A stretch of DNA of 64,000 bases from Capitulum mitella (Eukaryota; Arthropoda; Thecostraca; Pollicipedomorpha; Pollicipedidae): assembly GCA_030062745.1 (NCBI GenBank), contig CP099851.1, positions 3,841,161-3,905,160 of the forward strand, in the 5' to 3' direction. Each line of letters starts with the position of its first letter. Position 1 is the stretch's first letter. The notes under the pieces were generated by a model, which was not told the DNA's origin, did no database searches, and saw only the letters and a list, made by a program, of their open reading frames with translations. Made by a program: the position numbers and the translations under genes. Positions 6,254 to 61,345 of this stretch are shown in pieces.

Positions 6254-6514
6254 TGTTTTGCAGTCAACGTCACGTCAAAGCCATAAAACATAAAGACATT
6301 TGTACCTCCTCACTCATTAAATGCTTTAATACCTTCAAACTAGACTGTCATTGAGCAAAGTCAATTGAAAATCGCATAGCTGCACTCGTTACGATTAATC
6401 CCCAGACAGTACATATTACAGGACTGACATCATTATGCATCATTTCCAGTGGCATAATACTAGGTGACTATGCATGAGCGTTCATTGCTGAAAGACAGCA
6501 GAGGGTAAGTAGCT

Positions 6515-22783: not shown

Positions 22784-24205
22784 CATCTATCGACAGACAA
22801 ATTCGGGTGCTGGGAACTGTGGCACAAGTGAAGGAACCCCGCAGATCCATGCCTCCAGACGTTCCATTTTAGCCGTACCTGACGCCAAGCAATACAAACA
22901 CGGCAGAGTAAGGCTGCATAGGGTGTCAAAAGCCAGGGATGACGATTTCAAGGTCATGATCAAGTTCATTGTCGAGGTCGGCGTCAAATCCCGTAGTTGC
23001 AGTCTTCTGTAACCTTTTCACGTGGTGCGGAAAGCCACGTGACAAAGGAACGGCAGACGAGAATCACAGGAGATATCCAAGATCAGAGCAGTTGACACTC
23101 TGATAGCTGCGCAGTTTTCGCTACGTCCTCCATTTGGTTCAACAACATCTGTGGAGTCCCAGGCAATAAACGAAGACGACCCGTCCAGACTGTGCCAGTC
23201 GCCCTCTGCATTTTTGTCTTGCAGCCCAACCCAGAAGATACCGATGCCAGCCGTCTGTTTTGCGTAAGCGGCGAGAATGGCGGCCATGCCCGGCTCCATT
23301 GGGTGGCCCAGTCGAGAGCCGTCCGCCAGCCGGCCGCAGTGCTGGTCCGCATCGTCGAAGGTCATCGGCTCGGAGAGCAGCAGGTAGCAGTGCTGGACAA
23401 TTTGCAGCCAGCCGGCGGGACATCCGCTCAGCAGATGTGCTGGCTGCCGCTCCTCGCACACAACGAGCCTCGTGGAAGCACAGGACCGCTGGACTAGGTG
23501 TGTCTTATATAACCTGTATGGAAGGTTCATGCAGAGGAAAGCTTCGCTCGGTGAGCCATGGATCTCTACGGATGGCACGAAGATGGTGTCATCTGGATTC
23601 CGCCAGGACGAGCCTGAGCTTCGAACAGGTCCAATCCACTCAGATTCGTTGGGTCGACTGGAGTGATGCATCAAGAACACCACCTCCAGGTCGTCGTTTA
23701 AGGAGGCTGGCTTGGAGCATAAGCTCAGGCTGAGGCATGCTTGATGGGTGCTATTGCCATCGGTCGTTTCCTGGGTCCTGAAGTAGCAGCTGCCGTTGAA
23801 GGCGATCCAGCCAGGGGCGCAGAGGTCCGTTATTCTGGTGCCCGCCCGACGGGAATAGCTGGAACTTTGGTCCTTCTGAGCTGGACGGTCGGCGACCAGG
23901 CAGTGGTCCGGCTCCACCAGCATCTCACACAGCCGGTCCGGTCCGTACCTGAAGCCGTCACAAAACTCGGGCGTCAGCCGGCCGCAGCGGGCAGCGCACT
24001 CTTGAAGACCAGCCGCCGGCGACGAGGAGAAGGCTGTGCTGGTGAAGGTGCCCTTCTCCAGCTTGAACTGGTCGATGGTGAAGGAGGAGGACAGGGGTAA
24101 CAGGATCAGTAACAGCCACATCACAGCTCTGCTGAAACACAACCGTCCGCCACCAGAGCCAGGCGTCCAGTTGAGTCCAAGGCTCGGGCAACTGGAATGG
24201 CGACG
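22784..24205 (-). repeat. Right arm of the inverted lectin-gene duplication
   Basis: Reverse complement of 6515-7945, including shared 5' and 3' flanks. The two genes point toward each other across about 15 kb. Confidence 0.85.
23018..24121 (-). CDS. Secreted two-CTLD lectin with N-terminal PAN-like region (copy 2)
   Basis: A 367-residue intronless coding region with start ATG at 24121 and signal peptide MWLLLILLPLSSS. It has the same length and architecture as copy 1: PAN-like cysteine region, CTLD1 (LCAPGWIAFNGSCYF ... EWIGPV), CTLD2 (GCPAGWLQIVQHCYLL ... FWVGLQDK ... EPN ... ENCAAI). By hand comparison about 33 of 374 frame positions differ, roughly 91% identity, with no indels, so both copies look functional. 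Differences cluster at the end of CTLD1, where copy 1 has HKFIKI and copy 2 YRLYKT, and in CTLD2 around EPN (THAVEPN versus TDVVEPN). WND is missing here too. All cysteines of the folded domains are kept. Ligand unknown. Confidence 0.9.
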   Translation of the reverse strand: MWLLLILLPLSSSFTIDQFKLEKGTFTSTAFSSSPAAGLQECAARCGRLTPEFCDGFRYGPDRLCEMLVEPDHCLVADRPAQKDQSSSYSRRAGTRITDLCAPGWIAFNGSCYFRTQETTDGNSTHQACLSLSLCSKPASLNDDLEVVFLMHHSSRPNESEWIGPVRSSGSSWRNPDDTIFVPSVEIHGSPSEAFLCMNLPYRLYKTHLVQRSCASTRLVVCEERQPAHLLSGCPAGWLQIVQHCYLLLSEPMTFDDADQHCGRLADGSRLGHPMEPGMAAILAAYAKQTAGIGIFWVGLQDKNAEGDWHSLDGSSSFIAWDSTDVVEPNGGRSENCAAIRVSTALILDISCDSRLPFLCHVAFRTT

Positions 24206-36926: not shown

Positions 36927-37023
36927 ATGACGGGACCGGGCGAGTCCGGCGACGTTCTTCTGAGGCAGATCGGCGAGGTCGGACGGTGGCAGCTCATCAG
37001 CTTCTTCGTGCTCTCACTCTACT
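36927..37023 (+). CDS. SLC22-like coding exon 1
   Basis: The ATG at 36927 encodes MTGPGESGDVLLRQIGEVGR and then the start of helix 1. Preceded by acceptor-like ctcctgcgcag, so this exon starts at about 36915 and a 5' UTR exon probably lies upstream. Donor T|gtgagc, phase 1. Confidence 0.85.
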
Positions 37024-40000
37024 GTGAGCCTCAGCGTCTCGGCCGGGCGCCCACAAAACCCCGACCGGTTTCGTGCTTTGTTGCGGAGTTAAGCCTGTCC
37101 GATGCTTAGTCGTTCCCATGCCATCTCCACTGTAAAGCTGCTGGCGGACTCGGGGGGTGGTCGGGGGTATGAGTCATGTTTTGTTAGAAACAGTCGTCAT
37201 GATGTCGTTTGGCACCCCTTTTTGGGCGAAAATGTAATTTTTTACGTTTAAGCACTTTTGTTAAAAATACAAGCCAGTTTAAAAAAAAGACACAAAATGG
37301 CCGAAATCCGACGACAAATCGATGTTTGGGAGTAGATAACGTTAAGCAGAGGTTTGCCATCTCCCCACGGCATATGAGCTGAATCCGTCCTTGCGTATAG
37401 CTAATCGTGACACAGTGACTTGGATTTCCTTTGTCTTGAGACTTTCCACAGAGATGTTTGCAGCGTACAAAATAAGTCAAATGGTTCCTTCACTTTTAAT
37501 TCTGTAACCATTAAGTGCATAACAGGGCTAAGAAAAACATATGACAACCAGGTGGCCGTTGTGTGTCAGCTCATCAAGTGCCAACAAGTGCCTGTCACCC
37601 AACTGAAACATTCATTGGAAGAGAGGATTCCTTCTAGCATATGTCAAGCGATCCTTCATGCATGAACTGACGTCATCTGAACCCCTCTGAACCATGACAC
37701 CAAACAACACGTGGTCTGTCCCAAACCATGCCTTTCCGGAGGCCGAAACCGTAGCGGCGTTGACGGCGAGGTCATCGTGCCCACAGGTCTTCCAGCAGCC
37801 TGGCAAACCATGGTGGTGGTGTTTCACGTGCCCCCTGATGTCGACTTTTGGTGTAAGCCGCCAGCTGCCTTTGCAAACTGGACGGACGGCCAGTGGAGAC
37901 GGTACAGCACGCCATTCAATGTGGACAAGGTCAGTTTACCTACAGCAACGGACAGGGGCGCGGGAACTCCCCTGCAGTTCGGGGGGGCAAGGCGTATTTT
38001 GGATCCATTCTTTGTCGACGCCCATTCTTAAAACGTTCGGGGGAAGCTGCCCCTGCCCTTTCTGCGTACTTGGTTACGGAGTAGCTGAACCACAAAAAAG
38101 TGTAGTCCACGGGCATTGCTCCAGGAATTGACCATAATGCCTTCAAAAGACAAATGAATCACTATTCTCGTGGGAACCTTAGTCCGTCAGATCCGTTTCA
38201 CACTTGTGTCAAACGGATCTGACGAATGAAACCATCTTTTTTCATTTTTGACCTTTCTCTGACTTTGTGCAATGAACTCAGTGCGACAAAACTGTTTTTT
38301 TAGGTTGGCCCGATTATTTATCTTTACAGTCACGATGTTTCAATGTTCATCTAAAAACACCCTTTTTATTTTATTCCATTCTTTATTTTTGATAATCCCC
38401 TACCCGTTAATGGATAGGCAGGGGTGCCCTTCCATGCCTGTGCGACCCAATTACTTCACTACTTCAAGAATTTCTACACTACTTTCTACACTATTTCAAG
38501 AATCACTTCTGATCGCACCACTCCCCGCTATTCTTTTTTTCTAAATCCACTCCCGCCATCGGTGACAGTGATGGGCATCGCGAAATTCATGACAGCCATT
38601 TTTCTTCTATGTTGAACAGTGTCAAAAAGGTCTGCGGCGCCTCCCAAAACTTTGGCTTAGCTTCGACAGGACCGGACAAAATAAGAGTGAACATTTTGAC
38701 CTTATAGGACGTGAACAAAATTGAGAGGAAAGTATCAGAGCTGCGCCGAAAAACGCGGAGATGGCAAAAAACAAAATAATAATAAAAACTTGGAAAACGG
38801 AGGGAGAGCTCCCGGATCCCTTCACATATCTAAGCTTAGTACAGTCAAGTGCAGTGGAATTTGTAAACTAAAGTACTCGGCCTGTGATGAGGCAGTATGT
38901 ACAGTGTGATGCTAGAAAGGTGCTGAAAATTTTAATTTGGGCCGTCGTTTATCAGATATGTGAGAATTTTGCCCCAATGTTAATATTTGCCCCCTCCCCA
39001 GTCAATGGGGATTTACCCTAAAATTGCATTCTTGGTAGGTGCGGTGTACTTTGAAGGACAGGTTTTTGGGGGGTTGACTGTCGGGTCCTCCGTGAGGGAG
39101 GTGTGTGGTGTGCGGCAGGGACTGAAGTGCATCTGACCCGGTGCCGTGAGCAGAGCATTCTCGGTTCGAGTTGAGACTCGGTGGTCTGCAACCTTTACTA
39201 GGGTAGCCGAGATCTAGGGGTGAGGGAGAGACCTTTTCGGGGAGGGGACAAACCCCCAAGCATTTAATATGTATTCTTTATCATATGCAATATATTATTT
39301 AATATAAATTTGTAGTATATAAAACATAAATATATCATATGTATATAATATAACAAAATACGTATTCATGTCCGTATTTTGTTCAAGTATTTTCTTTGTA
39401 GGGTTCATGGGTAACCTGGCACCGTCCTTGTTCGTTCCAATGGCAAACAGAAGTAAGGGTGTTTCGGTCCGGTGCGATCCCAGGCGACCGGCTCCGTCGG
39501 GCGGAGTCCGTTGCCCAAATCCGATCCCGGCGAGCTACACCCGACACCGTACTGGCTGCCTGGCATTCCTTGAAGAGGCATCCCCATGGCCGGGTCACGG
39601 CCAGGGGACGTCTGATCTGATAGACTCACGAGGTGGAGTCGATCAGACTACCTTGTGATGTTCTTCAGTCTCTTGATAAAAAAAGAAATGTATATTAGAG
39701 GAAAATTACGCAGCAGGCTTCCGCCACCAGACGATTATTTCAGCATTTTCATGCCCGGCATTAACGTTTTGGAAGGATTTGCTACCCTTTTCTGTTGTTT
39801 GTTTCTGTTGGTTCTACGAATCTTTTTCAGAGGTATTGTTATTCAGGGTTAAAGAATAATTGTGAAATATTATTGGAAGAACCAAAGATCGCCGATCATA
39901 TAACTCCAAACACAGGAAAATTAAACAAGAATGCGTTTCCAGACGGAATCTTCAATGACCATGCAAAGCTATAGTACAACGCATGCTTTGCAGTTTCCAA

Positions 40001-41555
40001 AACCAGGTACGTGTCTTGCAATGACTGCTGCTGGCGCAAGCTCATACAGTTTGTTCTCACGTGTGGCGTAGACAGGTGGCGGGGTTCTCACACAGCATTC
40101 CTGTGTCCACTCACAGGAGCAGTGGGACACGTGTAAGGTATACAAACTGGACTACAGCGTCGCTCCGGAGGACCCCGACTCTCCTGAGCGGCTCTCCAAC
40201 GCCACCAAGCCGTGTCCGCACCAGAAGATGATCCCCAGCCGGTGGCGTTTCAACCACTCCTTCTATCATTGGACCATCCGAGAGCATGTCAGTCATATCA
40301 CGCCACGCGCGCATGCGTTTAGAGAATTCGAAATTTTCAGACAATAAAAAATATAAAAAAAACTTTACAGGTTCGCGTTGAGGATGCATAATAAGAGGAA
40401 CAGTTTGCAAAAAGAAATACGAATCGTCAAGGTTTCGCTTAAACGTTTTGAGTAGATATCCGAGCGATAGATGAAGTAGTTTAGGGCATAATTATTGTGC
40501 TATACCTTTGCTCCGCGAAGCTCACGTTGAAATTGTCCACATTTTGCGACATCAGTGACCATATCTGCTCGGTACAAAGTGACGTACACCGATGCGCAAA
40601 AGTCACGAATATCTTTCCTGTATTTACTCGGAACGCTCCGAAGATACTGGCTGATTCTAAAACCTATAGTAATGTGCGTAACTGTTGCGTGCTATTTGTC
40701 TGATCGGTCCAGTTCGGCCTGGTCTGTGAATACGAGTACCTGATTGGGGCTGTGAAGGCGTCCTACATGGTGGGGACCATCGTCGGCGTTTTCTTCAGCG
40801 GCATGATCTCTGACAGGTTAGTGCACATCTAAAAAGAAAACAAAAGAGAGTCTGACAAAACCATTCCGTCTTCAGATGGAGGCTTTGGCGATTCTTGCCT
40901 CTTTGTAGTTTTTTTTTAACATTTTGCGTTATTTGTGGACGGTTGGCAGACTCAGGTACATCATCTTTGCCTCCCATTTTTGCAAGTTTATATCAGTTTC
41001 CTACTTTAACCCAGGGACGTAACTGGGGGGGAAGACTTTGCGGGCCATGCCCGTCCCCCCCGAGCCAAGCGGTGTACGCTAGATATATGGTGATTTCGCA
41101 AGAATACGTAATAGTGATCATATATATGTTGCTAAAACAAACATTATATGATATTATATGCGTTATGTATGATGTCAGTTACATAAAGCTGGTGTTTTTC
41201 TTCCAATAATTTTCGCTATATGCCAGCGGCATATGACAAAGTTCGACATTTGCCCCCCCCAAAAAAAAATCCTGGCTACGTACCTGCTGTAACTGTATTC
41301 CCGGAACTGGGATAAGGATTCCGCAACCCCTCTCCGACTTTTTACTTGCCATTTCTTAAGTTTTAAGGTAGCGTTATTAAAACTAATCACTTTTCCTATC
41401 TGTTTTTTCGGTATGTTATGCCGAGCTTTTATCACTGTATTTTTCTGGCACCATGTCGGGTTTTTGGGAGGCATGTCAGCCCATTTTTGGTTCCGTTGAG
41501 CGTAAAAGAAATATGACCACAAAAGTAGTGCTTTTAAGACAAAACTTAAAACTTT

Positions 41556-41602
<47 letters not shown>

Positions 41603-43430
41603 AACAGTCAGAAATGTTTTTTGTTGACCGAGACTGTTTCACAAAGTCACGTCAAGGGCAGATCCCAAAATGTGGCTTTATACAAATATTTCTGTGATGA
41701 TCTTTTAAACTAAAAAGGCAGAACACATATGACTGAGAACAGTACTTTCCACTTATGTTCCGAATTTCATAGTCAATATCAGGTCGAGTCACGGACCTAT
41801 GATCTATGATCTTTGCACGTGTACTCTATGTTGCGACGGTCATAAACAGAACTTTTAGAAATACAAGTAATTCATATGAGTGGAATCGTTTTGAAACACT
41901 ATGCAATTAGCCCAAGGCCATTCCATGTGACCTTGAGATAGTTTGAGACCATTGAGACCTAATGTCGAAAGCTGACCTCATAAAAATGCATCATGACAGT
42001 TCCCTTTCTCATTCTCCTTACGTTGCCCTTATCATTGTTAAACGAATAATCCAACACGATTTTTACTTCTGCATTGCAAAATGACTATCAAACGCCAAAA
42101 TTGATTTTAACTTTCATGAAAATTCAGTTATAAAAAAGTGTTCTCGCTTGTTAAGTTCTATGAACCCCTATGAATTTTCGCAAAACACCAGACAAGTGGG
42201 CCAAAGGGAAAGTCCCATCGATGAGCTGTCGATTTATGTCACTTGCATCAAAATCGTTGTTCAAACGTCGGAGTTAAAAGCCAAAAATTACCCCTTTCTT
42301 GCTTTTTGCACCGTTCCCATATCCACCACAACACCTCTTATAATTCTCTTTTATAAAAATGCAATTTACGTCATGGCAAATCGATTGACGTTTTTTGCAA
42401 TGAAATGGGGCGGCTAGTCCTCGAGATCTCGTGGGGAGAACAAATGCCCCCCCCCCCCCTTACGTGACTGCATTGTAGCGTTATAGCCACGGGAGAACAG
42501 TTAAGCTTCGAGTTTTCTTGTCATGCATTTCTTTCTGTTTCTAACCCTCGGCACGCTTGGACTCGATAGTTCTTATTTGCTCTGATTCAAGCTGAATAGT
42601 TCCTATTATCCGGCTTCGCGTAGGTTCGGTTTCGGTGTATTTTTCTCTTTGTTTGTTGCCGACTTCCTCTCTAGCTTTGGCCATCGTCTGAGCCCCTGTA
42701 TGCTGATGCTGGCTGTGGGCGGGTTCGAGTTCAGTGTTTGTCTGTGACTGCTGACAGGTTTGGCCGACGGCCGACAATCCTCGTGCTGCTGTCAGTGATG
42801 CTCGTCTCCTCCGTGGCCGTCTCGTTTTCGAACAGCGTCATGCTGTACATCGTGCTGCGCTTCATTCTGGCCTTGACCGTCATCGCCATGTATAACACCA
42901 ACTTCGTCTTCTGTAAGTGGTCTGTCGTCCACCAACGACGTCAAAGAGAACTCACGGCAGCAGCAAGGGAATATATCTGCAAGAGGCCTTTGTTTGTTCG
43001 CTTTTTTGTTTTCGTTTTGAGAATGTTCAGCACGTTACTTATCGCTTTGCGATGAGCCGCCCTATCGCGATGCAGTTAGTGTCGTCACTTCGTCATCTAA
43101 TCCAAAAAAAGTCACCCACGTTCTGGTAGCCATCAGCGACAGCGGCACCACCACATTTGAACATTCCACAGTCCCAGCTCCCCGTACGTCTGTGGATACA
43201 GAGGCGTACCGGCAGTTCCGATGGTGTGGTCCGCAGGTATGGAGATGGTGGGAGCCAGGTGGCGCGCGATCCTCGGGCTGCTGTTCCCGCTGCCGTTCGC
43301 CGTCGGCCTCATCAGTCTGACGGGCATTGCCTACATGCTCACCAACTGGCGGCATTTGCAGCTGGCCGTGAGCGTGCCGCTGGTGCTCTTCTTCCTCTAC
43401 TATTGGTCAGTCCGTACTAACCCTCCCACC

Positions 43431-43484
<54 letters not shown>

Positions 43485-46400
43485 TCGTGGCAAGGGTGTT
43501 TCGCAAAGGCCGGGTATTTCTGCAACCGGTTTAGCATTTGCTCTTCAAGCTACGTCATACGTCGAATAATCGAGGTAGAACATGTTGAGACACAGTGCGA
43601 AGAGCTTTATCCCCAACAAGCTTAGCACAACCATATTCCTGATTTCGTCACCATATAGTCTACATGCCTGGTAATGGTTCACCTTACACGCTATGGTAAG
43701 TGGCCGAGCAAAACCATTGTAAGCCGACAACAGTCAACATCAATTACGCAGTTCCGGTTCTGCGCACTTGTGTAAGTCGGTTTCGGCGGCCGGTATTAAA
43801 ACCAGCTGCCACTTGTGGTCCGGACTGGGGGCCGGACTGAGTTTCTGCTTGATTACGTCCGGCGAACGACGTTATTAACGTAACAAAAAAATCCGGGTAA
43901 ATAAAAATCGACGCAACCGCAGCATGACATTGCTGTGGTGATCAGGGTCATGGAACGGGGATTAAACAGAATCCTGTCGCATTTGTCTCGCTGAAACGTA
44001 TGGCGTGATGAATCAACATGATGGATTTTACGCCATAAAATCTTAGTCGGAAAAGCGACGGCTTACGCGACGGCGCAAGAGCTGTTGAGTTCCAAGAAGG
44101 TGATGTGACTTCACCACACCGTCCTTCCTCAGTTGATGTCTGCCCGCGTCCTTGCAATTTTTTGGGGGAAAGAAAAGTAGGTTCTCCCATCCTGACGCCT
44201 TGTTTGAAGCCCCTTTGTTGTTGTTATTACTAAACCGGCTTTGGAAAATTTATAGGGTTTACGGACGACGATTGATATATGGAAATAACGTCCAGAATGG
44301 AATCATGCGTGCTGTGTTGCTGAGTGCCGAGCTCGTGTTGTGTAACTGGTAACGGGTTGCTGATGTTCTTTTTTGCGGATGATGATGATATTTGGTCGAA
44401 TACCAAGCGGCAGTTTTATCAAAGACAATTATTCAGATTGAGTGGCAGCAGATGGAACCTGATGATTATTACGATGATTCATACATGATGACAAAAATGT
44501 CTGGCTATTGTTTAGGTCAACATTCTAGTCACCTCGATGGCTACCCACTGATTTTGGCCATGCTTTGCTGATAACGGTCAACACTGATAACTGGCGAACA
44601 CATCAGGGTAAAGTGATGACGGTAATGGTAAATGTTAAATGGTGAAAATGACAATTTCCCCCTCCGTTCACCATTTTGATTAATAGATCAGTGGTGGTGA
44701 CTCGTTGATCGCGATAGTCCTTGTGTTTGGTCTATGCAAGATAGCATTAGGTACGTCAGTAACATGGTGGTGATTTGGTTATAGGCTTTGCGGCTCGCCA
44801 GCTTTTCATGGCAGTAGGGCAATCATACGGTGATGATAGTGATTATTTGCTCGCGGTAGTGTTTTTAGTTAATGCAGGACATAAGGGTACTCTCTGAAGG
44901 TTTCTCTTCTAGTAATGGTTTTCGGTCTTAACCCGCTTTTCAGGGAGGTCGCTGGATCTTGATCCTGGACAGGGTGATGATGATGACGGTAGTGACGGAT
45001 TTCTGTCTAACGAGCACCTCACTGTTTTCGGAAATGTAAAAGAGTCTCTCTACTAATAATGATGGCATTGATGTTTTAAAATATTGGGTACGGGGCAGTA
45101 TTGAATTCTCTGTCCTGGTGATAATGATGATGATGATGCTAATAGCAATGGTTTGCATTTGCTCTGCTTTGTGCGGAAGTTTGTATGCAAGTACTTTGCT
45201 TTGTATTTGCGGAAGCATCAGAGTTTCTCCCCTGATCATGACGATGATGATAAAAACGATAGTAATGGTTTGCGTCTGTGTCGCCGTTCATGGTTGTACC
45301 AGAGTCTCACCTCTGATGATGATGATGATGACGGCTATGACGACGATGATGGTCGGGATGATGATGATAGTGATGGCTGTGATGCTGATGACGGTGGTGG
45401 TGGTGGTGATGATGACGGTAGTGATGGCGTGTGTGCCGCCTTTCAGGGCTGTATCAGAGTCGCCGCGGTGGCTGCTCGCCGCCGGCAAAGTGGACAGAGC
45501 CGAGGGCATCATCGAGTCTGTGGCTGAGATCAACGACAGGAGATTACGACCACACAGTGCAGCTGGTGCCCCAGGTCAGGCAAGGTCCGGAGTCCGGCAG
45601 CGAAGACTCGTTTCGAAATTCTTCAGTAAATGACGTGCGCCTCTCGCAACGACGGACAGAACAACATAGCTGGAGATTATGCGCCGTACCGGTTGTAATC
45701 GTCATTGCTGGAGCGAATCCTTTGTTTTTCATTTATCTTTTCCGCCCCTTCGGTTTTTTCGGTCTGTTCTGTACTGTGTCGTTGGCCTTTGATGTCTGCT
45801 AACAAACACATACCAATGAAACCCAAAGCCACGTCTATGTGATAAGCTTATTATTACGCATTGCAACGAAACAGCAGCAAGTTCCTTCAGTCTACAATTT
45901 GCCGTTGCCTGCGCCAAACGCCGCGCCGCTAAAATCAAAGAGAAGTTGCAATAAAAGACGGTAAATGTAAAAAAAACAAAGGCTTGAGTTATGTGTCAAG
46001 CTCGTCGTCCTGGTTCTCCCCTTCACGCACTCTTTCCCAGCACGAAGAGCGCACGCACGTGCACGTGAAGGAGTTGCTGCGTCACCACGAGTTGCGCCGG
46101 ACCACGCTGCGCGTGTGGCTCGTCTGGCTGGCCAACGGGCTGGCCTACCACGGCCTGCTGTTCAACTCCGTGGACGTCAGCGGCGGCGTGTTCCTGCACA
46201 CGCTGCTGGGCGGCTGTGTGGAGGTGGCCGCCTGCCTGGCCAGTGTCCTGGCCTGTCTGAAGCTGGGCCGGCGGATCGCCATCATCGCGGCCATGGAGCT
46301 GACCGGGGTCTTCCTGCTGATCACGACCGCCTTCAGCAGAGGTCAGAGGCTGGTCACGGCCGCCCTCAGCAGAGGTCAGAGGCTGGTCACGGTCGCCCTC

Positions 46401-49203
46401 AGCAGAGGTCAGAGGCTGGTCACGGTCACCCTCAGCAGAGGTCAGAGGCTGGTCACGGTCGCCCTCAGCAGAGGTGAGAGGCTGGTCACGGTCACCCTCA
46501 GCAGAGGTCAGAGGCTGGTCACGGTCACCCTCAGCAGAGGTCAGAGGCTGGTCACGGTCACCCTCAGCAGAGGTCAGAGGCTGGTCACGGTCACCCTCAC
46601 CAGAGGCCAGAGGCTGGCCAGAGTCACCCTCAGCAGAGGTCAGAGGCATGGGTGTTTCCAAGAGAGGAGATAAACGGTAAATAAACAGGCCATAAGAGCG
46701 TCCATACGGTTGTAGAGCTGTCCTCACTCGGGAAAACTATCTGAACTGAATGTTTCTCTTTTTGACCGCGGCGTTGTCCACATTCAGAGGGGCTACGTGT
46801 CAGACCTGCGCCAGCTCCCAGCTTCAACGTCGCCTGCTCCAGATAGTCATCTTGAGATGGGTGAAGATAGGTGTGTGATAGCATTTTTAAACTAAATCCA
46901 AAATGCTGAAAATGTCTTATGTTATTTCTTTGAGGTATAGCTAGGTAGATTTGCATGTGAAAGTATGACCATCCATTTCTTAAAATGGAAAAAGAAACAT
47001 GTTTTCCCTAACCGTGAGCATGTTGGCGTCCCGGTTGTCTTTTTTCTCATCCACCCCCCACCCCCAGTCCCTCCTTGGTCTGCGTCTGCGCCGGCCTACA
47101 CTGATGTCCAACGATCAGCAACGCCGGTTCGCCATCAGGCGTCGAGGACTTTCAAGGAAATCGTCACGTTGGGGTTTGCTGTTTTTTTTGTGATCGGATT
47201 GTGCGTTTCTTCGAAATCTGTGGTGCAGCCCGTGCAACATACGCGCAGAGCTCGTGTGTTGGAGTGCCTGCAGTCAGGATGAATACCAGTGGCCTCTTGT
47301 TGAGCCGTCTAAACCGGGTAATGGCTTAGTTTCTGCTGTCAGCCAAGGCCTGTGGCATGCTGAAAACGTTCAGACACACGCGGCTGGGCAGCGAATTACT
47401 AACCATTTTTAGTGCAATACGTGCTATGAGGCTTGATTAATTTAGACGACCTATACCTTTGACTCTTTGGGCTTTACGTAAACCGCAACCATCTTATTTT
47501 TAAGTTATGCATGTCAGCTTAAACGTAAGCTTCCGAGTAGCGCCGTTTCCTTTATCAACGGCCCATTATCCCATGGTAATACCACATTGACAGCTTGGTC
47601 TTCCTCGTACAAAAAAATCCTGGGACCTGTTCTCTAGCTTCCCCCTCCCCTCGCCGGCCAGGCTGTCAGCCCGATGCCGCTATTGGTGGTCGGCCATTGT
47701 TCGGCCGCTGACGTCACACACGTCAGTGACGTCACGCCGTGTGGACGGGCTGCAGCCGGAGCCCGTCAGTCACCATCATGCGCTGCTTCAGGATTTCGGA
47801 GGGATAGGGATGGGGACAATTATGACAGCCAGCCTTGCAATCATTCGTTCAGCTGACTTTTCTGACTGGCCTTAATGCGAGAGCTGGAGGCCATCCTGTG
47901 ACGTGAACGCCGTCCTCTTTGAGTTGGGTGACGCTGTGGGCTGATGGGGACGGCTCATGGGCGGTCCTGATTTTGATGTGCTTCGGAGCTGTCGGTAACT
48001 CGGCGTTACAACCCTCCTCCACCCTCCTCAGCGGACTGCAGCAGGGACTGGCCCCTCCACGCTCCGCCGCGGACTACAGCAGGGACTGACCCCACCACCC
48101 TCCACAGGCGACTGGAGCAGGGACTGGCCCCGCCACCCTCCACAGGCGACTGGAGCAGGGACTGGCCCCACCACCCTCCACAGGCGACTGGAGCAGGGAC
48201 CGGCCCCATCACCCTCCACAGCGGACTGCAGCAGGGCCTGGACCCCTCCACCCTCCACAGCGGACTGCAGCAGGGACTGACCCCTCCACCCTCCGCCGCG
48301 GACTGCAGCAGGGACCGACCTCTGCACCCTCCGCAGGGGACTACAGCAGGGACTGGCCGCTGCTGCTGCTGACCCTGCTGGCCCGGTTTTGCGTCAGCGC
48401 CTCGTTCGGCATGGTGCACCTGTACGCGGCCGAGGTGTTCCCCACCGGCCTGCGGAACACCGGCCTCGGCTCCTCGGCGGCCTGGTCCGCGCTGGGCGGC
48501 ATTCTCGCTCCCCTGGTCGCTGGTCTGGTGAGTTCCAGCATGTTGTTCTGCCTTCTTTCACTCCGTTTTCCATCGCGTTACGGAGCAGTGCTCCTGCTGT
48601 CAGCTGGTGAAGTCGTGCTGTTCTCGCCCGTTGCCCAAGGCAGAGCAAACTGACTTACTGTTTTCGGCGAAGAATGTCTCCTGTTTGTTGTTTCACGCTA
48701 AGCAGGTTTTTGTTTGTTGGTCCAGCTGGAGGAGTGCGTCTGTCGTTTGTTGTTTCAGACTGAACAGATGAGTGTTGTTTGTTGACAGACTCATCTGTCT
48801 GTTTGCTATCGCAGAAGGGTCGGTATGTCTGTTGCGTTGTTTTAGGCTCGGCAGTACGTCTGTTGTTTGCTGTTTCAGGCTGAGTAGTTCGTCTGTAGTT
48901 TGTTATTTCAGGCGCAGCGGTACGTCTGTTGTTTGCTGTACGAGTCTGAGCAGCTCGTCTGCTGTTTGCTGTTTCAGGCTGATCAGTACGCTCACCTGCC
49001 GGCCATTGTGCTGGCCGGCTGTGTGATGGGCGCCGGGGCCCTGCTGCTCTCTCTGCCGGAGACGGAACACCTGAAGCTGCCGGACACGTTGCACGAGGCT
49101 GGCTCCCTGGGCAGGTCAGTCGCATTGGCGGTCACACTACAGGCAGGTCAGTGGAGGTATCGGACGCTCTGCGGGCAGGTCAGGCAGAGTCTGTATCTAT
49201 TTG

Positions 49204-49258
<55 letters not shown>

Positions 49259-49584
49259 TCCTCTCTCTCCATTCCCTTCTTCGTTTCCATTTCCGTTTCC
49301 GTCTCCGTCTCCATCTCCGTCCCCGCCCCGTCTCCGTCTCCGGCCTCCGTCCCTGTCGCCCTGTGTGTCGCTTGTCTGTCTGTCCCTGGCCTTGGCGCTG
49401 ACGTGTTCCCCTGTGACGTGACAGGGCCGGGCCGGACGGGCCGACCCAGCCCGTCCTGCCGCCGTGGAGCTTCGGCCAGACGCCGCCGCGGCGGCCGGCC
49501 ACCGGCGCCACCAGCGCCCAGGGCGTCCTCAACCGCGGCTTCTCCGCCATCGAGGAGTACCCGGACGAGTGTTCCGCCCTCTGA
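36927..49584 (+). CDS. SLC22-family organic ion transporter (11 coding exons)
   Basis: Twelve-helix major facilitator transporter of the plasma membrane, substrate unknown (organic cation, anion or zwitterion). Coding exons: 36927-37023, 37787-37929, 40117-40287, 40713-40816, 42758-42912, 43237-43405, 45447 to about 45574, 46041-46341, 48337-48527, 48978-49114, 49425-49584. About 585 residues, usual for the family. Diagnostic signs in order: N-terminal GEVGRWQLISFFVLSLY; large extracellular loop with cysteines and NWT, NAT, NHS glycosylation sequons; FGLVCEYEYL before helix 2; MFS motif SDRFGRRP across the exon 4/5 junction; SESPRWLL; WLANGLAYHGL; ARFCVSASFGM; YAAEVFPTGLRNTGLGSSA; SLPETEHLKLPDT. 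All junction phases agree except exon 7/8, which needs a donor I could not fix. Several introns end in splice-site-containing tandem repeats. Orthology within SLC22 cannot be decided by eye. Confidence 0.9.
37787..37929 (+). CDS. SLC22-like coding exon 2
   Basis: Acceptor cgtgcccacag. The split codon T|GT gives Cys, then LPAAWQTMVVVF (helix 1), then extracellular DFWCKPP and the sequon NWT. Donor AAG|gtcagt, phase 0. Confidence 0.85.
37930..40116 (+). other. Intron 2 of the transporter gene
   Basis: 2.2 kb. Holds a 40-base hairpin at 38185-38224 and an AT-rich stretch near 39270-39365. No gene seen in it. Confidence 0.7.
40117..40287 (+). CDS. SLC22-like coding exon 3
   Basis: 57 codons, phase 0 at both ends. 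Extracellular loop with DTC, NAT, PCP, NHS, then YHWTIREH. Acceptor tccactcacag, donor CAT|gtcagt. Confidence 0.85.
40713..40816 (+). CDS. SLC22-like coding exon 4
   Basis: Acceptor gatcggtccag. Encodes FGLVCEYEYLIGAVKASY, then helix 2 and the first half of the MFS motif (GMISD). Donor GACAG|gttagt, phase 2. Confidence 0.88.
41289..42504 (+). mobile_element. Family A TTAA element, copy A6, in intron 4
   Basis: Left end GTAACTGTATTCCCGG; right end decayed to cagttaa after a C-run. The interior retains A blocks ('actttataca', 'aggtcgagtcacggacctat', 'catgacagttccc', 'aatgggg'). It holds a TA microsatellite. Lies in the sense orientation of the gene. Confidence 0.65.
41557..41598. repeat. (TA)n microsatellite
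   Basis: Pure TA array inside A6. Confidence 0.97.
42758..42912 (+). CDS. SLC22-like coding exon 5
   Basis: Acceptor tgactgctgacag. Completes the Arg of SDRFGRRP, then PTILVLLSVMLVSSVAVSF (helix 3) and YIVLRFILALTVIAMYNTN (helix 4). Donor TTCT|gtaagt, phase 1. Confidence 0.9.
43237..43405 (+). CDS. SLC22-like coding exon 6
   Basis: Acceptor gtggtccgcag. Encodes MEMVGARWRAILGLLFPLPF (helix 5) and WRHLQLAVSVPLVLFFLYYW (helix 6). Donor TATTG|gtcagt, phase 2. Confidence 0.9.
43432..43482. repeat. (GA)n microsatellite in intron 6
   Basis: Uninterrupted GA array 25 bases after the exon-6 donor. Confidence 0.97.
44380..45446 (+). repeat. Degenerate GAT-rich tandem array ending at the exon-7 acceptor
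   Basis: Clusters of GAT/GATGAT alternate with a recurring stretch like 'ggtagtgatggcgtgtgtg' followed by an acceptor-like block and 'cagagtc'. A clear diverged copy of the acceptor region is at 45255-45310, where the true 'ctttcagggctgtatcagag' corresponds to 'cgttcatggttgtaccagag'. Weaker copies are at about 44980-45045 and 45140-45232. The repeat period is irregular. Confidence 0.55.
45447..45574 (+). CDS. SLC22-like coding exon 7 (3' end uncertain)
   Basis: Acceptor gtgtgccgcctttcag. Completes Trp, then AVSESPRWLLAAGKVDRAEG and IIESVAEINDR, matching the family's ESPRWL cytoplasmic segment. The donor is unclear: CCAG|gtcagg at 45574 looks best but leaves the reading frame one base off against exon 8. 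Alternatives at 45584, 45591 or 45609 are weaker. Confidence 0.75.
46041..46341 (+). CDS. SLC22-like coding exon 8
   Basis: Acceptor cgcactctttcccag after a pyrimidine tract. Encodes HEERTHVHVKELLRHHELRR, then TTLRVWLVWLANGLAYHGL (helix 7), helices 8-9 and FLLITTAFSR. Donor AGCAGAG|gtcaga, phase 1, which fits exon 9 exactly. The donor lies in the first unit of a 33-bp minisatellite; reading through instead of splicing keeps the frame open for about 110 further codons. Confidence 0.88.
46325..46652 (+). repeat. 33-bp minisatellite carrying the intron-8 donor (10 units)
   Basis: Ten units, each containing agcagaggtcagaggctggt then cacggtcaccctc, with few substitutions (one unit has gtgag instead of gtcag). 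Unit 1 is the last part of exon 8 plus the true donor. The unit length is a multiple of three, so the plus strand stays open (LSRGQRLVTVT repeated) and the minus strand is open too. Confidence 0.95.
46653..48018 (+). other. Interior of intron 8 of the transporter gene
   Basis: Unique-looking sequence between the donor-side and acceptor-side minisatellites. No conserved exon seen; frames here do not resemble the family. Confidence 0.5.
48019..48361 (+). repeat. 38-bp minisatellite carrying the intron-8 acceptor (9 units)
   Basis: Nine units (one of 39 bp) of the form ccaccctccacaggcgactg followed by gagcagggactggcccca. Unit 9 overlaps the start of exon 9; its ccctccgcag is the true acceptor. 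An AG at the equivalent place is kept in units 1, 3, 4, 5, 6 and 7 and lost in units 2 and 8 (ccgccgcgg). Confidence 0.95.
48337..48527 (+). CDS. SLC22-like coding exon 9
   Basis: Acceptor ccctccgcag. Starts GG to complete a Gly codon, then DYSRDWPLLLLTLLARFCVS, SASFGMVHLYAAEVFPTGLR and NTGLGSSAAWSALGGILAPL (helices 10-11). Donor CTG|gtgagt, phase 0. Confidence 0.9.
48675..48990 (+). repeat. 33-bp degenerate tandem array carrying the intron-9 acceptor (about 8 units)
   Basis: Units follow cgtctgttgtttgctgtttc then aggctgagcagta. The last unit contains the true acceptor and start of exon 10 (gctgatcagta). Similarity falls with distance from the exon. The unit two before the last keeps tttcag and an open frame (AQRYVCCLLYESEQ) into exon 10; the unit before that has an in-frame TAG. 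Confidence 0.85.
48978..49114 (+). CDS. SLC22-like coding exon 10
   Basis: Acceptor gtttgctgtttcag, phase 0. Encodes ADQYAHLPAIVLAGCVMGAG (helix 12), SLPETEHLKLPDTLHEAGSL. Donor GGCAG|gtcagt, phase 2. Confidence 0.9.
49109..49195 (+). repeat. Triplicated donor of intron 10, 32-bp period
   Basis: GGCAG|GTCAG occurs three times, with GT at 49115, 49147 and 49179. The sequence between the copies is only loosely similar. Confidence 0.75.
49206..49256. repeat. (CT)n microsatellite in intron 10
   Basis: Uninterrupted CT array followed by a diverged C/T-rich tract to about 49345. Confidence 0.97.
49425..49584 (+). CDS. SLC22-like coding exon 11 with stop
   Basis: Acceptor ctgtgacgtgacag. Completes Arg, then a Pro/Gly-rich cytoplasmic tail ending GFSAIEEYPDECSAL and TGA. 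The tail is poorly conserved in this family; frame and phase fit exactly. Confidence 0.85.
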
Positions 49585-50138
49585 CGGGGTCGGACCAGAA
49601 CGCCCGCCCGCGGTTCGGATCGGATCATGTCACCTCTCCGCAGCTCGGATCAGACCAGGACGCCTCCCCGCAGCTGGAATCAGATCCGCAGTGTGGCGGC
49701 GGTGACCGAGTGATGTGCGCTAACTTAAGTGCGTGCAGAGGTACGGTCGAGGAGCTGCAGTTACTGGCCTGCGGCCTTCGCCGGTACCGGTAGGGGGCAG
49801 GTAAACGTGTTCCCAAACTTGTGCGAGAGTTCGATGTCACCGGAGGTGCACAGGAAGAAACACGTTGAAGATTTCGATGGCCTCGCTGAACTCTGACCCT
49901 GGAGACGCGTTGGCCGCTGCTACCCTATCTGCGAACCCCATCTGCGAACAGCGGTCTGCGGTGTTGCCTGGTGAAGCTACCAGTCACTGGAGACGTCTGC
50001 AGCAGCTGCCCAGTTCGGAGAACCTACAAATGCCGGAGGGCGGCGAGGTATGCAGTAAGCCGCACGACCCGCAAAACACTCGAACCATCGTAGAGCTTGT
50101 CAGCACTGTTTTGCCACGCTGGGAACGCTTTTGCAGTC
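49585..50138. other. 3' flank of the transporter gene
   Basis: The first 120 bases are GC-rich with a short imperfect repeat of 'cggatcagaccagga'. Probably 3' UTR. No polyadenylation signal called. Confidence 0.4.
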
Positions 50139-51749: not shown

Positions 51750-51875
51750 TACAGCGGGACCAAGGGGCACCGCCAGTCCAGCCGCAGGATCAGGGGCATC
51801 GCCGCCCCTGCGGCAAGACCAGGGGCACCGCCACCCTTCCGGCGAGACCAGAGGCACCGCCACCCCTCCGAAGCG
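51750..51875 (-). repeat. About 30-bp tandem repeat just downstream of KRTCAP2
   Basis: About four units like cggcgagaccagaggcaccg then ccaccccttc. It starts 14 bases past the KRTCAP2 stop codon and so probably lies in the 3' UTR. Confidence 0.7.
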
Positions 51876-51888
51876 TGTCGTTTGGGCA

Positions 51889-51994
51889 CTATCGCCTCTT
51901 CTTGGAGGGCGCCACCTGCACCGCCACGGGCGCCACATAGGTGGCTTGAGACAGCCTGTTCATGTAGTACAGGATGGCCACGGAGAAGATGAAG
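51889..51994 (-). CDS. KRTCAP2: KRTCAP2 coding exon 3 with stop
   Basis: Acceptor ctccatttcag. Completes Cys, then FIFSVAILYYMNRLSQATYV and the tail APSKKRR, TAG. Confidence 0.92.
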
Positions 51995-54900
51995 CTGAAA
52001 TGGAGAACGCATACTGGTGAACGGCACCAGTGGAGCACGCAACGTCAGAGACCACGCGCAAAGCAGAACGCACCGGTTGTTTAACATTGTCTGGGGGTTA
52101 ACCACGGCAGACGCCGGATGGGCGTTGAGCGAATAGACGACGTAGCACAGTAAGGATTCTGGACAATTGCTTTCGTACGAACGGTAACGGGTTTAGTCTC
52201 CTACGGCGAAGATCGTCAATCTGCTCGTGGAAAGCCACCGGGTCTGTTCCACAGGGGTCTGTCCCTACCTCTTTAGGAGTCTGGCACATTCGACTGAAGT
52301 GCAGTACTGCTATCATCATGACATAATCAGAGTGTGGAATTACTGAGCTTACGACAGAAATGCTTAACAGCCGTAAACTGGCAAAAACAAAAAAAAAACG
52401 GCACGACACGCAGTATGAATGTCTTTCCAAATAGGCGAAAATACAAAAAATCGGCATGCTCATGTTCCCATGCCCACAGATGATACAACCAGGTTACCAA
52501 TCTCCTGCGACCTGTGTTCCCGCACAATCTCGCCCTACCCTGAGTACATTTCCGGAGCTCTCCGTGGCCCACAGCGTCGCGGGAGGGACAATCATTGAGA
52601 CCCTGAACGCAGGGCGAGCACAGAAATTCAACACCAACCCTGCGGCAATGCCCTCGAGAAATGCCTTGCACACGGTCCGCGATCCTTCGCCCTGAAACTG
52701 GGACGTTCCATCGTCGATGTCTGGCGCAGTGCGAGCCTGCCCAGCGGCCACGGCCTCCGCCCTCACCAGACGGTGGTGCAGACCCGGTGGATCATGCCGG
52801 CGGCCGTGCAGGCCATGGCCAGGCAGAGCAGCACCTCCAGCAGCTTGGTCTGGAAGCCCTTGCCGAACAGCGTCGTCTCCAGGTTGCCGACGAACGTGAG
52901 CATGAGCAGGAAGAGCAGCGAGCTGGCGCCGCCGGCCAGCACCGTCAGCAGCGGCGAGGCGGTCAGCTGCGGCTTCAGCAGCTGCAGGCCGGCGAACAGA
53001 CTGACGGCCAGCACCAGCGACAGCACCAGCGACACCTGGCTGCTCACGGCTGCAGGATAAACACACGGCGGAATGAGCTAAAAGCACACTTGGTTTCTCA
53101 CGACCACCCGACAAAACGGTGTACTTGGGTTACTGCAGGATGAGCTAAAAATAAAAACACTTCAAACTGAATATATTGCTTATGGCAATGTGTCCGTAGT
53201 ATGGACCTACTATGTCTATACGAGATACTTAATTTCACAAAATACTTCATTTCCTATGCTGGACAGCTCAGACACACCAGTGTTCAAGACACAGGAGCCT
53301 CTTACTACGTCTTCCTGTTTAACCCGCGCCCAACCGGCACCCTGACGTGGGTGGCCGGAGCCCGGGGGAGGGGCGTTTCGACACAGTAACTCTATTTCAC
53401 AAATGGAACGTTCGAGGAAAATCAAACTTATATCATCGGTAATCTCCCGATGAGTAAGTTCCAAGGCACTTAAAACTTCGGAAATAGAAAAAAATCATGC
53501 AACTTTCTGCCCATTTATGTAAAAAAAATGGTAATTTCTAAGAATTATGGTTCTGCCCCTAAAATGGAGCTAGAACAACTTTGAGCATGTCAATGGAAAG
53601 CCACTAGAATGCACATTATTGTGACACAATTTATAACAGATATGCAATCACACACTGCATCACGTGACCTAAGGCAATGTCATTTTTCATTTTACTATAT
53701 TTACGAGGTCCCTGAATGTCATTGGTGAGCTGTTGTCCATGCATGCTTCCAAACCAGTAAGAATGGATTTCTATGAACATTTTCCAAATACTAGCAGACT
53801 AGAACAACGACCCAACGTGACCTAACCTGACCTTGTGGCCTGACCAAACATTCAGCCATTTTTTGTTCTATTTTGTGCCCTGATGAGGTTCAACAACCAA
53901 TCTACACAAAAGGATAATGACATCTTTGGACTGAAACTTCCACGATCATCATCAATAGGGTGCTATATAATGCCAATCATGTGACCTGGCCTAACATAGG
54001 ATCATGACTTGATTTGAAGCATGCTTGGGTTTCATCTTTTATGCCTAGATCTGCCAATGACTCATGAGATAAACCTGAGGGATAAAAATGGACATCTGGA
54101 TATGAAGTCAGTTTTCTCCCATCGTGACCTTGCATGACCTTAGGCGACCTAGGGCCATTTCACAGCACATGGGCATCATGGCAAAAATTAGAACAACAGA
54201 CTTCAGTGCCTATTCTTACCCCAAGGGTCATCAAAACAGGATTTTTCATTCTTTTTTGCTAGTTAACCCCAAATGTAACCAGACATGACCTCATGATCCT
54301 CTATGTGGGTCAACACTTTTTGTCACATTTAGTGACTTCCTTGGGCAAGGAATACATTTCAGACACAAACAAATCCAGTACACAGTTCAAAATCATTAGG
54401 AACAGGGAAATATGGTAGAAATTTACCTGATTTCATGTCACTGACATTGACCTTGACAAGAAATTTGAGACAGCACAATTTTCAAGAATGTCCTTCACTA
54501 TTATCCCTGAAAGTTTCAGGCTGATCCATTGCACAGCTGGTTTGTTGAAGACTTCTTTTAAGGAATTAGAGCTTGCTATCTTTTACGTGATCTAGGTCAG
54601 TGACTTGATGTGGCTGGAAGCTGGGAATTCTATCAGAACATGCGCAAAGGACACATGAAAAGTTACTGGTAGTTTCCGCATGTTATGCATGACGTTTTTT
54701 CCTATCACCAAAAACTGCCAGCCAGGTTGAACAAGGGTTAATGCTGTTCACAAAGTTGTGTGATTCTACTAAACCACTATTCTGTTATATAATTAACAAA
54801 TAACAATAGTACATTATTATGTAATGACATATAATATTAGGTATGTAATAAAAATTACATGCATATACATGTATAAATTCTACTTAGCCACACAAACATA

Positions 54901-56798: not shown

Positions 56799-59190
56799 TT
56801 AACCCGTTCCCGACTTGGGGGGGGGGGGGCAGTTGACTGCCCCTGGGTTTTTTCTGGGATTGCGAGAGAACCAACAAACACAGAGTCACGAAACTTTGTG
56901 TACCTTTTGCTCCATCAATTTTACATATCGTGTCAAAATTTTGACCTCAGGTCACGTCAGGTGCCTGACCTAGGTTCGGTCAAACAAACCTATGCCAAAA
57001 AAGTTTAGCGCCCTCTAACTTTTGCGGAAAACAAGATATCTCAATAATTCTTTGAGGGATTATCGATCGTGATAGACGCAACAAATCTCCTATCTCAGAT
57101 TTTTCGGAATTTTCCGGGTCACTGACCAGCAAGTCAAGTCAGTCAGTGGAGTCAAGCAGACATCTAGTTACCGTCATTGGGCAAAGTATCAGTGACTTCC
57201 AGACATTTACCTGAGGTCAGGTCACGAATAAATGTAGTGGGCCAAAATGTACCACCGTCAAAATCGACGATGAATTACTCAGAATGGGTAGAAAATGGCA
57301 GAACTAGCTTGCACAGACGTAATTAATACCAGGAACCTCAAAAAAATTTACAAAAGTAGCATACTTTGGAAATAAACAGGCTCGCGCGAATAAGGCGACG
57401 CCAACTTTGTATATTGATAACCAATCAGTTTATCCAAAATTTAATCATGAGAAACCATCAGAAGAATCACAAAGATCAATAAAATTGACATAGATAGTCT
57501 TTTTTGCGAAAACAAAGGAACGCCAAAATTAATTCCCGTCATTTTGGTACCGCATACGGCAGCGGCGCACACTGACAGCTGGCAGGAGAATTGCCGTGTC
57601 TTTAACCCGCGCACGACCGTCGGTCCGTCCCGAACATCGGCGACTGGGGGGGGGGGCATTTGACCGCCCCCCTCTAACTCACGAACGGTTGGTCGCACGA
57701 TAATAATAAGCATACCGTTGGAAAGTCTGTGACGAGCAGAGCTCGAAACTGGTCTCATTTTTAGTTTTTGATAACATGTAAACCAATTTACGCCCTATAT
57801 AAGTTTTCTCATAGCCGACTGCATGAGACCGAGAAATGGCCTGAATCTCAAGGGTTGTGACTAGTAACGCATAGATAAAGGCACCAGCGCACAAGCAAAT
57901 GTCCGCAGATACCGATACACGTCTAATTTCCTCAGATTTGTTCAATGTATACGCCGAAACGTTGAGTTAAAGACACCGTAATTCTCCCGTCAGCCGTCAG
58001 TGTGCGCCGCTGCCGTATGCGGTACCAAATTGACGGGAACCAATTTTAGCGTTCCTTTATTTTCGCGAAAAAAGACGATCTATGTAAATTTTATTGATCT
58101 TTGTGGTTGTTGTGATGGTTTCTCATGGTGAAATTTTGGAAAAATTGGTTAGTTACCAATCTACAAAGTTGGCGGAGCTTTATTCGCGAGAGCCTGTTTA
58201 TTTCCAAAATATGCTACTTTTTCAAACGTTTTGAGGTTCCTGGTATTAATTACGTTTGTGCAAGCTAGTTCTGCCATTTTCTACCCATTCTGAGTAATTC
58301 ATCGTCGATTTTGACGGTGGTACATTTTGGCTGACTACAGTAATTCGTGATCTGATCTCAGGTCAATGGCTGGAAGTCACTGATACTTTGCCCAATGACG
58401 GTAACTAGATGTCTGCTTCACTCAACACTAAAAATGTTATGGAATATTCCGTCAATTTCCGAAAAAACGGCGATATGTCTTAAAAATGGGCTTGACCTTA
58501 GGTCAATGACCCGGAAAACTTCAAAAAATCTGAGATAGCAAATTTGTTGCATCTATCATGATCACTAATCCCTGAAAGTATTATGGAGATATCTTGTTTT
58601 GCGAAAAAGTTAGAGGGCGCTAAACTTTTTTTGACATAGGTCTGTTTGACCTGACCTAGGTCAAATACCTGACGTGTCCTGAGGTCAAAATTTTGACACG
58701 AGACGTAAAATTGATGGAGCAAAAGGTACACAAAGTTTCGTGACTCTGTATTTGTTTGTTCTCTCGCAATCTCAGAAAAACCTCAGGGGGGGCAGTCAAC
58801 TGCCCCCCAGTCGGGGACGGGTTAACTTAACGTTTCGGCGTATATATTGAACAAATCTTGGGAAATTAGACGTGTATCGGCATCCGCGGACCTTTACTTG
58901 TGCGCTGGTGCCTTTACCTATGCGTTATTAGTCACAGCCCTTGAGATTCAGGCCATTTCTCGGTCTCATGCAGTCGGCTATGAGAAAACATATATGGGGC
59001 GTAAATTGCTTACATATTATCTAAAACTAAAAATGAGACCAGTTTCGAGCTCTACTCGTCACAGGCTTTCCAACGGTATGCTTATTTTTATAGTGCGACC
59101 AACCGTTGGTGAGTTAGAGGGGGGCAGTCAACTGCCCCCCCCCCCCAGTCGCCCATGTTCGAGACGGACCGACGGTCTAGCGCGAATCAA
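56799..59190 (-). mobile_element. Family B element, copy B2, split by nested B1
   Basis: First part 56799-57605 (starts TTAACCCGTTCCCGACTTGG), second part 58826-59190 (gtttcggcgt ... gcgcgaatcaa, terminal TTAA mutated to TCAA). The break is exactly at an internal TTAA that is intact in B1 itself ('gttgagttaaagacac'). Confidence 0.85.
57602..58825 (+). mobile_element. Family B TTAA element, copy B1 (complete, nested)
   Basis: 1.22 kb, from TTAACCCGCGCACGACCG to cagtcggggacgggTTAA. Contains TGACCTAGGTCA at 58652-58663. It interrupts B2 with TTAA on both sides, so TTAA is the duplicated target. No transposase. Confidence 0.9.
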
Positions 59191-60124: not shown

Positions 60125-61345
60125 TTAACCCGCGCAAGACCGTTGGTCAGTTACGATCATGACGAACTGGGGGGCGGGGGCAATTGGCTGCACCCTGACT
60201 CACGAACGGTTGGTCCCACGATCAAAATAAGCACATCGTTGGAAAGCTTGTGACGAGTAGAGCTCGAAACTGGTCTCATTTTTAGTTTTAGATAATATGT
60301 AAGCAATTTACGTCCTATATATGTTTTCTCATACCCCACTGCATCAGACCGAGAAACGGCCTGAATCTCAAGGGCTGTGACTAATAACACATAGTTACAG
60401 GTACCAAGGCACAAGTAAAGATTATCAAATGCTGATACACATCTAATTTCTCGGATTTGTTCAATATATACGCCGGAACGCTGAATTAAAGACACGGCAA
60501 TTTTCGCGCCGGCTGTCGGCATGCGGCGCAGCCGGTATGCCGTAAGATATTGACGGGAACTAATTTTTGCGTTCCTTTGTTTTGGCGAGAAAAGCCTATC
60601 CATGTAAATGTTCTTGATCTTACTGGTTCCTGTGATGGTTTTCATGCTTAAATTTCGGAAAAATTTATTAGTTACTAATCTACAAAATTTGCGGCGCCTT
60701 TATTCGCGAGAGACTGTTTATTTCCAGAGTATGCAACTTCTTAAAACTTTTTGAGGTTCCTGGTATTACTTACGTCTGGGCAAGCCAGTTCTGCCAATTT
60801 CTACCCATTCTGAGTAATTCATCGTCGATTTTGACGATGTTACATTTGGTTCACTACAGTCATTCGTGACCTGACCTCAGGTCAATGGCTGGAAGTTATT
60901 GATACCTTGCTCAGTGACGGTAACTAGATGTCTGCTTGACTCCACACTAAAAATGTTATGAAATATTTCGTCATTTTCCCCTAACAAAACGACGACATGT
61001 CTTAAAAATGGGCTTGACCGTAGGTCAATGACCTGGAAAACTCCAAAAAATCTGAGACAGCAGATTGTTGCATCTATCAAGGTCACTAGTCCCTGAAGGT
61101 TTTATTGTAATGCCTCATTTTCCGATAAAGTTACAGGGCCCTAAACTTTTTTGGACATAGGTCTGCTTGACCAGACCTAGGTGAAGCACCTGACCTGACC
61201 TGAGGCCAAACCTTTGACACAAGGTGTAAAAATAATCAAAAGATACACAAAGTTTCGTGGCTCTGTGTTTGTTCGTTCTCTCGCAATCCCGGAAAAAACC
61301 TTAGGGGGGTGGTCAACTGCCCCCCCGCAGTCGGGGGCGGGTTAA
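60125..61345 (+). mobile_element. Family B TTAA element, copy B3
   Basis: Begins TTAACCCGCGCAAGACCG and ends cagtcgggggcgggTTAA; full length, moderately diverged from B1. The TGACCTAGGTCA site has two changes here. Confidence 0.85.

Follow-up and report, generated by a model that had tools for sequence, protein, structure and literature searches.

Tandem repeats whose units run across exon-intron boundaries are known from amphioxus, where they were named mirages and are described at both donor and acceptor sites (PMC3087553). The accessible parts of the amphioxus papers give Adh3, the globins BflGb6 and BflGb9, and TnC as examples, with PGBD5 as a further case (PMC3087553; PMC3902484, the latter for PGBD5). 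For the globin mirages, the available text reports that copy number differs between two haplotypes and that splicing is regular as judged by RT-PCR; intron gain from mirages was proposed in the same paper (PMC3087553). The idea that a splice boundary can itself be amplified has already been published for amphioxus and is not new.

In the Rogers model of intron gain, as the part of the paper at hand presents it, tandem duplication makes an intron out of an exonic AGGT (PMC3443670). Human variable internal tandem repeats have units of about 30 bp, and those located at exon-intron boundaries can change both the splicing and the structure of a gene; the cases in the accessible text concern paralogs from recent segmental duplications (PMC2812944).

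Here we describe a 64-kb stretch of the genome of the barnacle Capitulum mitella (hereafter the window) in which up to four splice sites of a single gene lie in arrays of this kind. As in the mirages, donor as well as acceptor boundaries are straddled by the units, and many, not all, of these keep AG/GT (PMC3087553, PMC3902484); their lengths overlap those of the mirages, which are 10-72 bp in Adh3 according to the section available (PMC3087553). Unlike in amphioxus, the host is a barnacle, and one gene carries up to four arrays, including one at each end of the same intron. The multiplication of AG/GT sites recalls the Rogers model (PMC3443670), whereas here array-free paralogs already have the introns, and the unit length of about 30 bp recalls the human repeats (PMC2812944). 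Regular splicing and length instability have been reported in amphioxus (PMC3087553), and many of the human cases are transcript-supported (PMC2812944), whereas the barnacle arrays are known from the genome sequence of one assembly. In the literature that we searched, crustaceans and barnacles included and most subscription journals outside reach, we found no arthropod case of boundary-spanning arrays.

Results

An SLC22-type gene with 11 exons

The gene at 36927-49584 (plus strand) was modelled with 11 exons, at 36927-37023, 37787-37929, 40117-40287 and 40713-40816 (exons 1-4), 42758-42912, 43237-43405, 45447-45574 and 46041-46341 (exons 5-8), and 48337-48527, 48978-49114 and 49425-49584 (exons 9-11). 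Its initial assignment as SLC22-like was borne out by homology. An organic cation transporter-like protein of the barnacle Pollicipes pollicipes shares 64% identity with the reconstructed protein (98% of the query covered), which also matches SLC22A3 in the PDB over residues 8-530 (E 1e-69) and contains a Pfam Sugar_tr domain. Homology at the sequence level thus extends across the transporter fold, and transport activity is putative. A tblastn search with the Pollicipes protein as query confirmed exons 1-10 at their modelled places, and exon 11 was placed by its open frame and splice sites. Exon 8 gave a single match in a DNA search of the assembly, and an Rfam search of the 64-kb window at gathering thresholds gave no match.

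Elsewhere in the window, an inverted duplicate (6560-8010 and 22711-24161) is 91.5% identical over 1453 bases, and each copy holds a long open frame that by eye resembles a secreted cysteine-rich, lectin-like protein. Two sets of dispersed repeats of about 1.1-1.2 kb with 80-89% identity (2211-3419, 13412-14626 and 62887-64000; 57602-58825 and 60125-61345) are probably mobile elements.

Four splice sites lie in tandem copies of themselves

Independently of any repeat finder, we took the 30 bases that span each boundary of the SLC22-type gene, 20 boundaries in all, and compared them with intron-side DNA at distances of 20-120 bases. At four of the 20 splice sites, one of them a weak case, the site itself recurs in a tandem repeat. 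Repeats of 33, 38 and 33 bp had been annotated across the intron-8 donor, the intron-8 acceptor and the intron-9 acceptor, and TRF and the exon model confirmed all three.

Array A (46333-46647, plus strand; 33 bp, 9.5 copies, 95% matches by TRF) spans the intron-8 donor, the boundary falling between 46341 and 46342. Its first copy carries the modelled donor and includes 9 exonic bases, the remaining copies are intronic, and 29 of the 30 bases across the donor match the neighbouring copy at lag 33. GT is kept in nine of ten registers; eight of these have the same donor score and one a slightly lower score, on a rough matrix derived solely from the gene itself (eight donors, eight acceptors). 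All ten registers leave the frame open, with a predicted gain of 11 residues per unit used, and because every register keeps the frame, isoform variation through the length of array A is possible. The copies are not identical to each other, and the ninth has diverged. A reading of array A as coding sequence was rejected; by inspection, its copies differ at amino-acid-changing positions.

Array B (48016-48358, plus strand; 38 bp, 9.0 copies, 87% matches by TRF) spans the intron-8 acceptor at the start of exon 9 (48337). The modelled acceptor is the last copy, with 22 exonic bases inside the array and 26 of 30 bases matching a copy at lag 38. Six upstream units have an AG; use of the one at 48184 would leave an open frame, and the other five would run into an early stop. 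Array C (48838-48990, plus strand; 33 bp, 4.6 copies, 72% matches, or 66 bp, 2.3 copies and 78% matches in an alternative TRF row) spans the intron-9 acceptor at the start of exon 10 (48978). Here too the last copy is the modelled acceptor, 13 exonic bases lie inside, and 25 of 30 bases match a copy at lag 99; two of the four upstream units would stay open and two would meet a stop. In each of arrays A-C, then, the modelled site is the most exon-proximal copy, and the repeats extend from 9-22 exonic bases toward the intron.

Array D (49107-49202, plus strand) is a degenerate repeat of three 32-bp units across the intron-10 donor, with the boundary between 49114 and 49115. The annotated 32-bp repeat at this donor stands above chance and is weak. 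It received no TRF call, matches itself at 53% at lag 32, and agrees with one neighbouring copy at 18 of the 30 boundary bases (P 0.03). A 14-mer at the boundary occurs in three copies at exact 32-bp spacing with 24 of 28 bases matching, a pattern with P 0.0012 over 20,601 window positions and equalled at none of 248 AGGT positions; since 20 boundaries were inspected, this P becomes about 0.02. All three units hold donor-like sites, and use of either later donor would lose the normal stop.

A fifth, degenerate case had been placed before exon 7, and this one did not hold. A GAT/TGA-like repeat in intron 6 (45315-45418, plus strand, or ending at 45426 in another TRF row) stops 20-28 bases short of exon 7 and excludes its splice site, and the 30-base test found no tandem copy of the exon-7 acceptor (14/30 bases).

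A unit that spans the boundary, as in the mirages, is thus found in arrays A, B and C and weakly in D. Decoy sites do lie beside the real ones, as anticipated, with AG/GT kept in 9/10, 7/9, 5/5 and 3/3 units of arrays A to D. The initial annotation was also right that the repeats are unrelated in sequence: the best identity between units of different arrays was 0.55, and the lowest P among 12 uncorrected comparisons was 0.033. The units of the two intron-8 arrays, donor against acceptor, likewise had a best identity of 0.55 (P 0.037, one of the same 12 uncorrected comparisons). Of the gene's four minisatellites, three overlap a boundary; P is 0.069 when arrays are placed without restriction along the gene, and 0.0004-0.001 when they are barred from entering exons by more than 22-30 bases.

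The introns are most simply older than the arrays

Three intron-bearing SLC22 paralogs, with exons placed by tblastn ends and AG/GT, lie on contig C2 at 3.43 Mb, C3 at 34.33 Mb and C2 at 36.05 Mb. Introns 8 and 9 occupy the same places in all three as in the window gene, and intron 10 is common to the window gene and the C3 paralog, the one whose stretch read reaches it; by eye, the phases read for these introns in the C2 3.43 Mb and C3 34.33 Mb paralogs agree with those of the window gene. We found no array at introns 8 and 9 of the three paralogs or at intron 10 of the C3 paralog. TRF on 14.4 kb of paralog sequence gave one array of score at least 80 and two smaller ones, each internal to an intron. 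Because the paralogs have the same introns without the arrays, the simplest reading is that the introns came first.

The suggestion that the arrays record the birth of these introns finds no support, given their array-free counterparts on other chromosomes. Birth by tandem duplication predicts that the intron is absent from relatives without the duplication and that its two flanks derive from a single duplicated segment; introns 8 and 9 are present in 3/3 paralogs, and the units of the intron-8 donor and acceptor arrays reach a best identity of 0.55.

One paralog offers a candidate intron gain of its own. The C2 paralog at 36.05 Mb has an extra intron inside exon 8 (L040 1863-2117, minus strand) with AG|GT at both ends, which neither the window gene nor the remaining two paralogs possess. 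Its acceptor is duplicated (24/30 bases at lag 62), and its donor and acceptor flanks do not resemble each other significantly, with 18 of 50 positions matching where the 99th percentile of chance is 20.

A genome search with PF00083 gave 12 matches, in which few introns were noticed. On contig C3, 18 clustered SLC22-like matches at 26.49-26.76 Mb are mostly intronless single long open frames, which suggests an expanded family derived from retrocopies.

Splice boundaries compared with the genomic background

As background we sampled 200 kb of the Capitulum mitella genome in 20 fixed-coordinate stretches from 15 contigs. This genome is rich in minisatellites, with 19 arrays (period at least 15, score at least 150) per sampled 200 kb against 3 in the 64-kb window. 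Over 35,138 position-sides, a copy was found at 18/30 or more bases in 8.5% and at 22/30 or more in 3.2%. Against these rates the SLC22-type gene, which was picked for its arrays, has 4/20 boundaries at the looser cut (P 0.084) and 3/20 at the stricter one (P 0.024).

We then scored 17 other boundaries: ten in a WDR47-like gene, three in a KRTCAP2-like gene, two in a probable HMIT-type sugar transporter and two in a further pair of sugar-transporter paralogs. These names are what we take the genes to be; one exon of the WDR47-like gene has a Pfam WD40 match, and the sugar-transporter genes were located by the PF00083 search. In these genes the boundaries were set by visual inspection, using open frames and AG/GT. 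A tandem copy was found at 5/17 boundaries at the looser cut and 2/17 at the stricter, and at 1/36 boundaries of the three SLC22 paralogs at both cuts.

The proposal that the boundary itself is amplified found no clear excess to rest on at unselected boundaries, with 5/52 observed against 4.4 expected at 18/30, and 3/52 against 1.6 at 22/30, in a set that omits one WDR47-like donor noticed for its array. As the WDR47-like gene was met through that donor, we also left out the whole gene; on this small sample, the overlap of tandem repeats with boundaries (3/43 against 3.65 expected, and 1/43 against 1.35) does not exceed the background, contrary to what the proposal requires. All 73 boundaries, selected ones included, gave 10 against 6.2 expected (P 0.088) and, at the stricter cut, 6 against 2.3 (P 0.028); against GC-matched background the values were P 0.24 and P 0.17, respectively. 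The sample is small, so a modest excess may still be present. Coding constraint should lower the counts at boundaries, so that parity with the background may hide such an excess.

Ab initio coding segments were tried as a proxy for annotation in the 200-kb sample, where 13 of 38 arrays adjoin coding-like segments against 2.6 expected. This result was rejected because locally shuffled DNA yields 71 such segments against 107 in real DNA. Reversed sequence (105 segments against 107) was judged unfit as a control because reversed coding DNA retains the three-base rhythm. Pfam matches were obtained for 7 of 50 segment translations, chosen as higher-scoring or array-adjacent.

Further arrays at intron ends

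Three further loci likely provide additional examples of boundary arrays. One is the extra intron of the C2 paralog. The second is the WDR47-like gene (C13, near 5.0 Mb), where three of ten boundaries are involved, two donors with arrays and an acceptor that is duplicated: an array of eight 26-bp units at L035 7006-7204 (23/30 bases), preceded by an exon that is an open frame and has no homology match itself; a degenerate 26-bp array at L019 2576-2690 (19/30); and an acceptor at L019 about 6440-6450 with a copy 68 bases upstream (24/30). The third is a sugar-transporter gene on C9 at 19.67 Mb, in which a degenerate 31-bp array with donor-like units (L025 3069-3377) starts 29 bases after the likely last donor (19/30 at lag 47) and a plausible last exon lies about 1.2 kb downstream.

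Discussion

We demonstrated that several intron ends of one barnacle gene lie in arrays of their own splice sites. The evidence in the Capitulum mitella genome does not show splice boundaries as special targets, and in our judgement the arrays are probably ordinary minisatellites that arose over existing intron ends and are likely tolerated through continued splicing at the exon-proximal site.

The strongest competing account, which we nevertheless regard as unlikely, is that exon edges in general attract arrays, GC-rich flanks breaking or slipping more often and splice sites being caught as edges. Between 36.9 and 53.1 kb, a region with two genes, all six arrays of score at least 80 have a coding edge no more than 35 bases away (P about 2e-6, for thresholds chosen once the data had been seen). 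Two of these lie past stop codons: a minisatellite at 49607-49686 begins 22 bases past that of the SLC22-type gene, and one at 51758-51870 starts 18 bases beyond that of the KRTCAP2-like gene (minus strand, 51889-53050). Because stop-codon arrays are included, the clustering favours exon edges over splice sites, and it hints at a real pull toward these edges. Moreover, intron GC content peaks at 0.57 beside exons and falls to about 0.43-0.45 further in, and tandem copies are more frequent in GC-rich sampled DNA. However, the paralogs, with a copy at a single one of their 36 boundaries and their one array of score at least 80 in the interior of an intron, give no sign of such a pull, and the choice of thresholds weakens the count for the window.

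That the splice boundary is the unit of amplification, and that the resulting arrays feed isoform variation and record the growth or birth of introns, appears very unlikely to us, despite the 4/20 boundaries of the SLC22-type gene, the 3/10 of the WDR47-like gene, the paralog-specific intron with its duplicated acceptor, and the mechanism of this type proposed, in the available text, for amphioxus (PMC3087553). Unselected boundaries show no clear excess, the same introns occur array-free in the paralogs, the intron-8 donor and acceptor arrays are unrelated, and the flanks of the extra intron match each other no better than chance allows. Finally, it is scarcely credible that the arrays are assembly artefacts or that the gene is decaying and unconstrained: a net one-base frameshift near the end of exon 7 (45447-45574) relative to barnacle relatives may be an assembly error or mark a decaying gene, but the array copies differ from each other, including the diverged ninth copy of array A, exons 8-11 are open, as are exons 1-7 up to the frameshift, and the published Capitulum mitella assembly, according to the accessible part of its report, was built with PacBio reads (PMC8416341).

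Under the reading that we favour, that of ordinary minisatellites over existing intron ends, slippage in replication or unequal exchange likely builds the arrays after the introns exist, in a genome where minisatellites are abundant. A duplication across a boundary would spare the exon if the outermost site stays in use, and the extra units would become intronic and free to drift, while selection would remove duplications that reach deep into coding sequence. The arrays are likely tolerated because the exon-proximal splice site would still do the splicing, and decoy sites could arise without any process directed at splice sites. If splicing slipped to a later donor of array A, each unit included would add 11 residues in frame. 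In the acceptor arrays, a pyrimidine tract and branch point of its own in each unit may let the last AG be used.

A broader picture, in which hypermutable splice-site arrays sit on conserved intron ends throughout the barnacle genome and give allele-specific, often in-frame isoforms, the first such case in arthropods, strikes us as improbable.

Taken together, our analysis extends boundary-spanning minisatellites from lancelets to a barnacle, with up to four in one gene and one intron carrying them at both ends. Since array-free paralogs indicate that arrays can postdate introns, the presence of an array where an intron ends cannot by itself be taken as evidence of intron birth. If the arrays vary between individuals, the gene would offer a natural test of spliceosomal choice among numerous near-identical sites.
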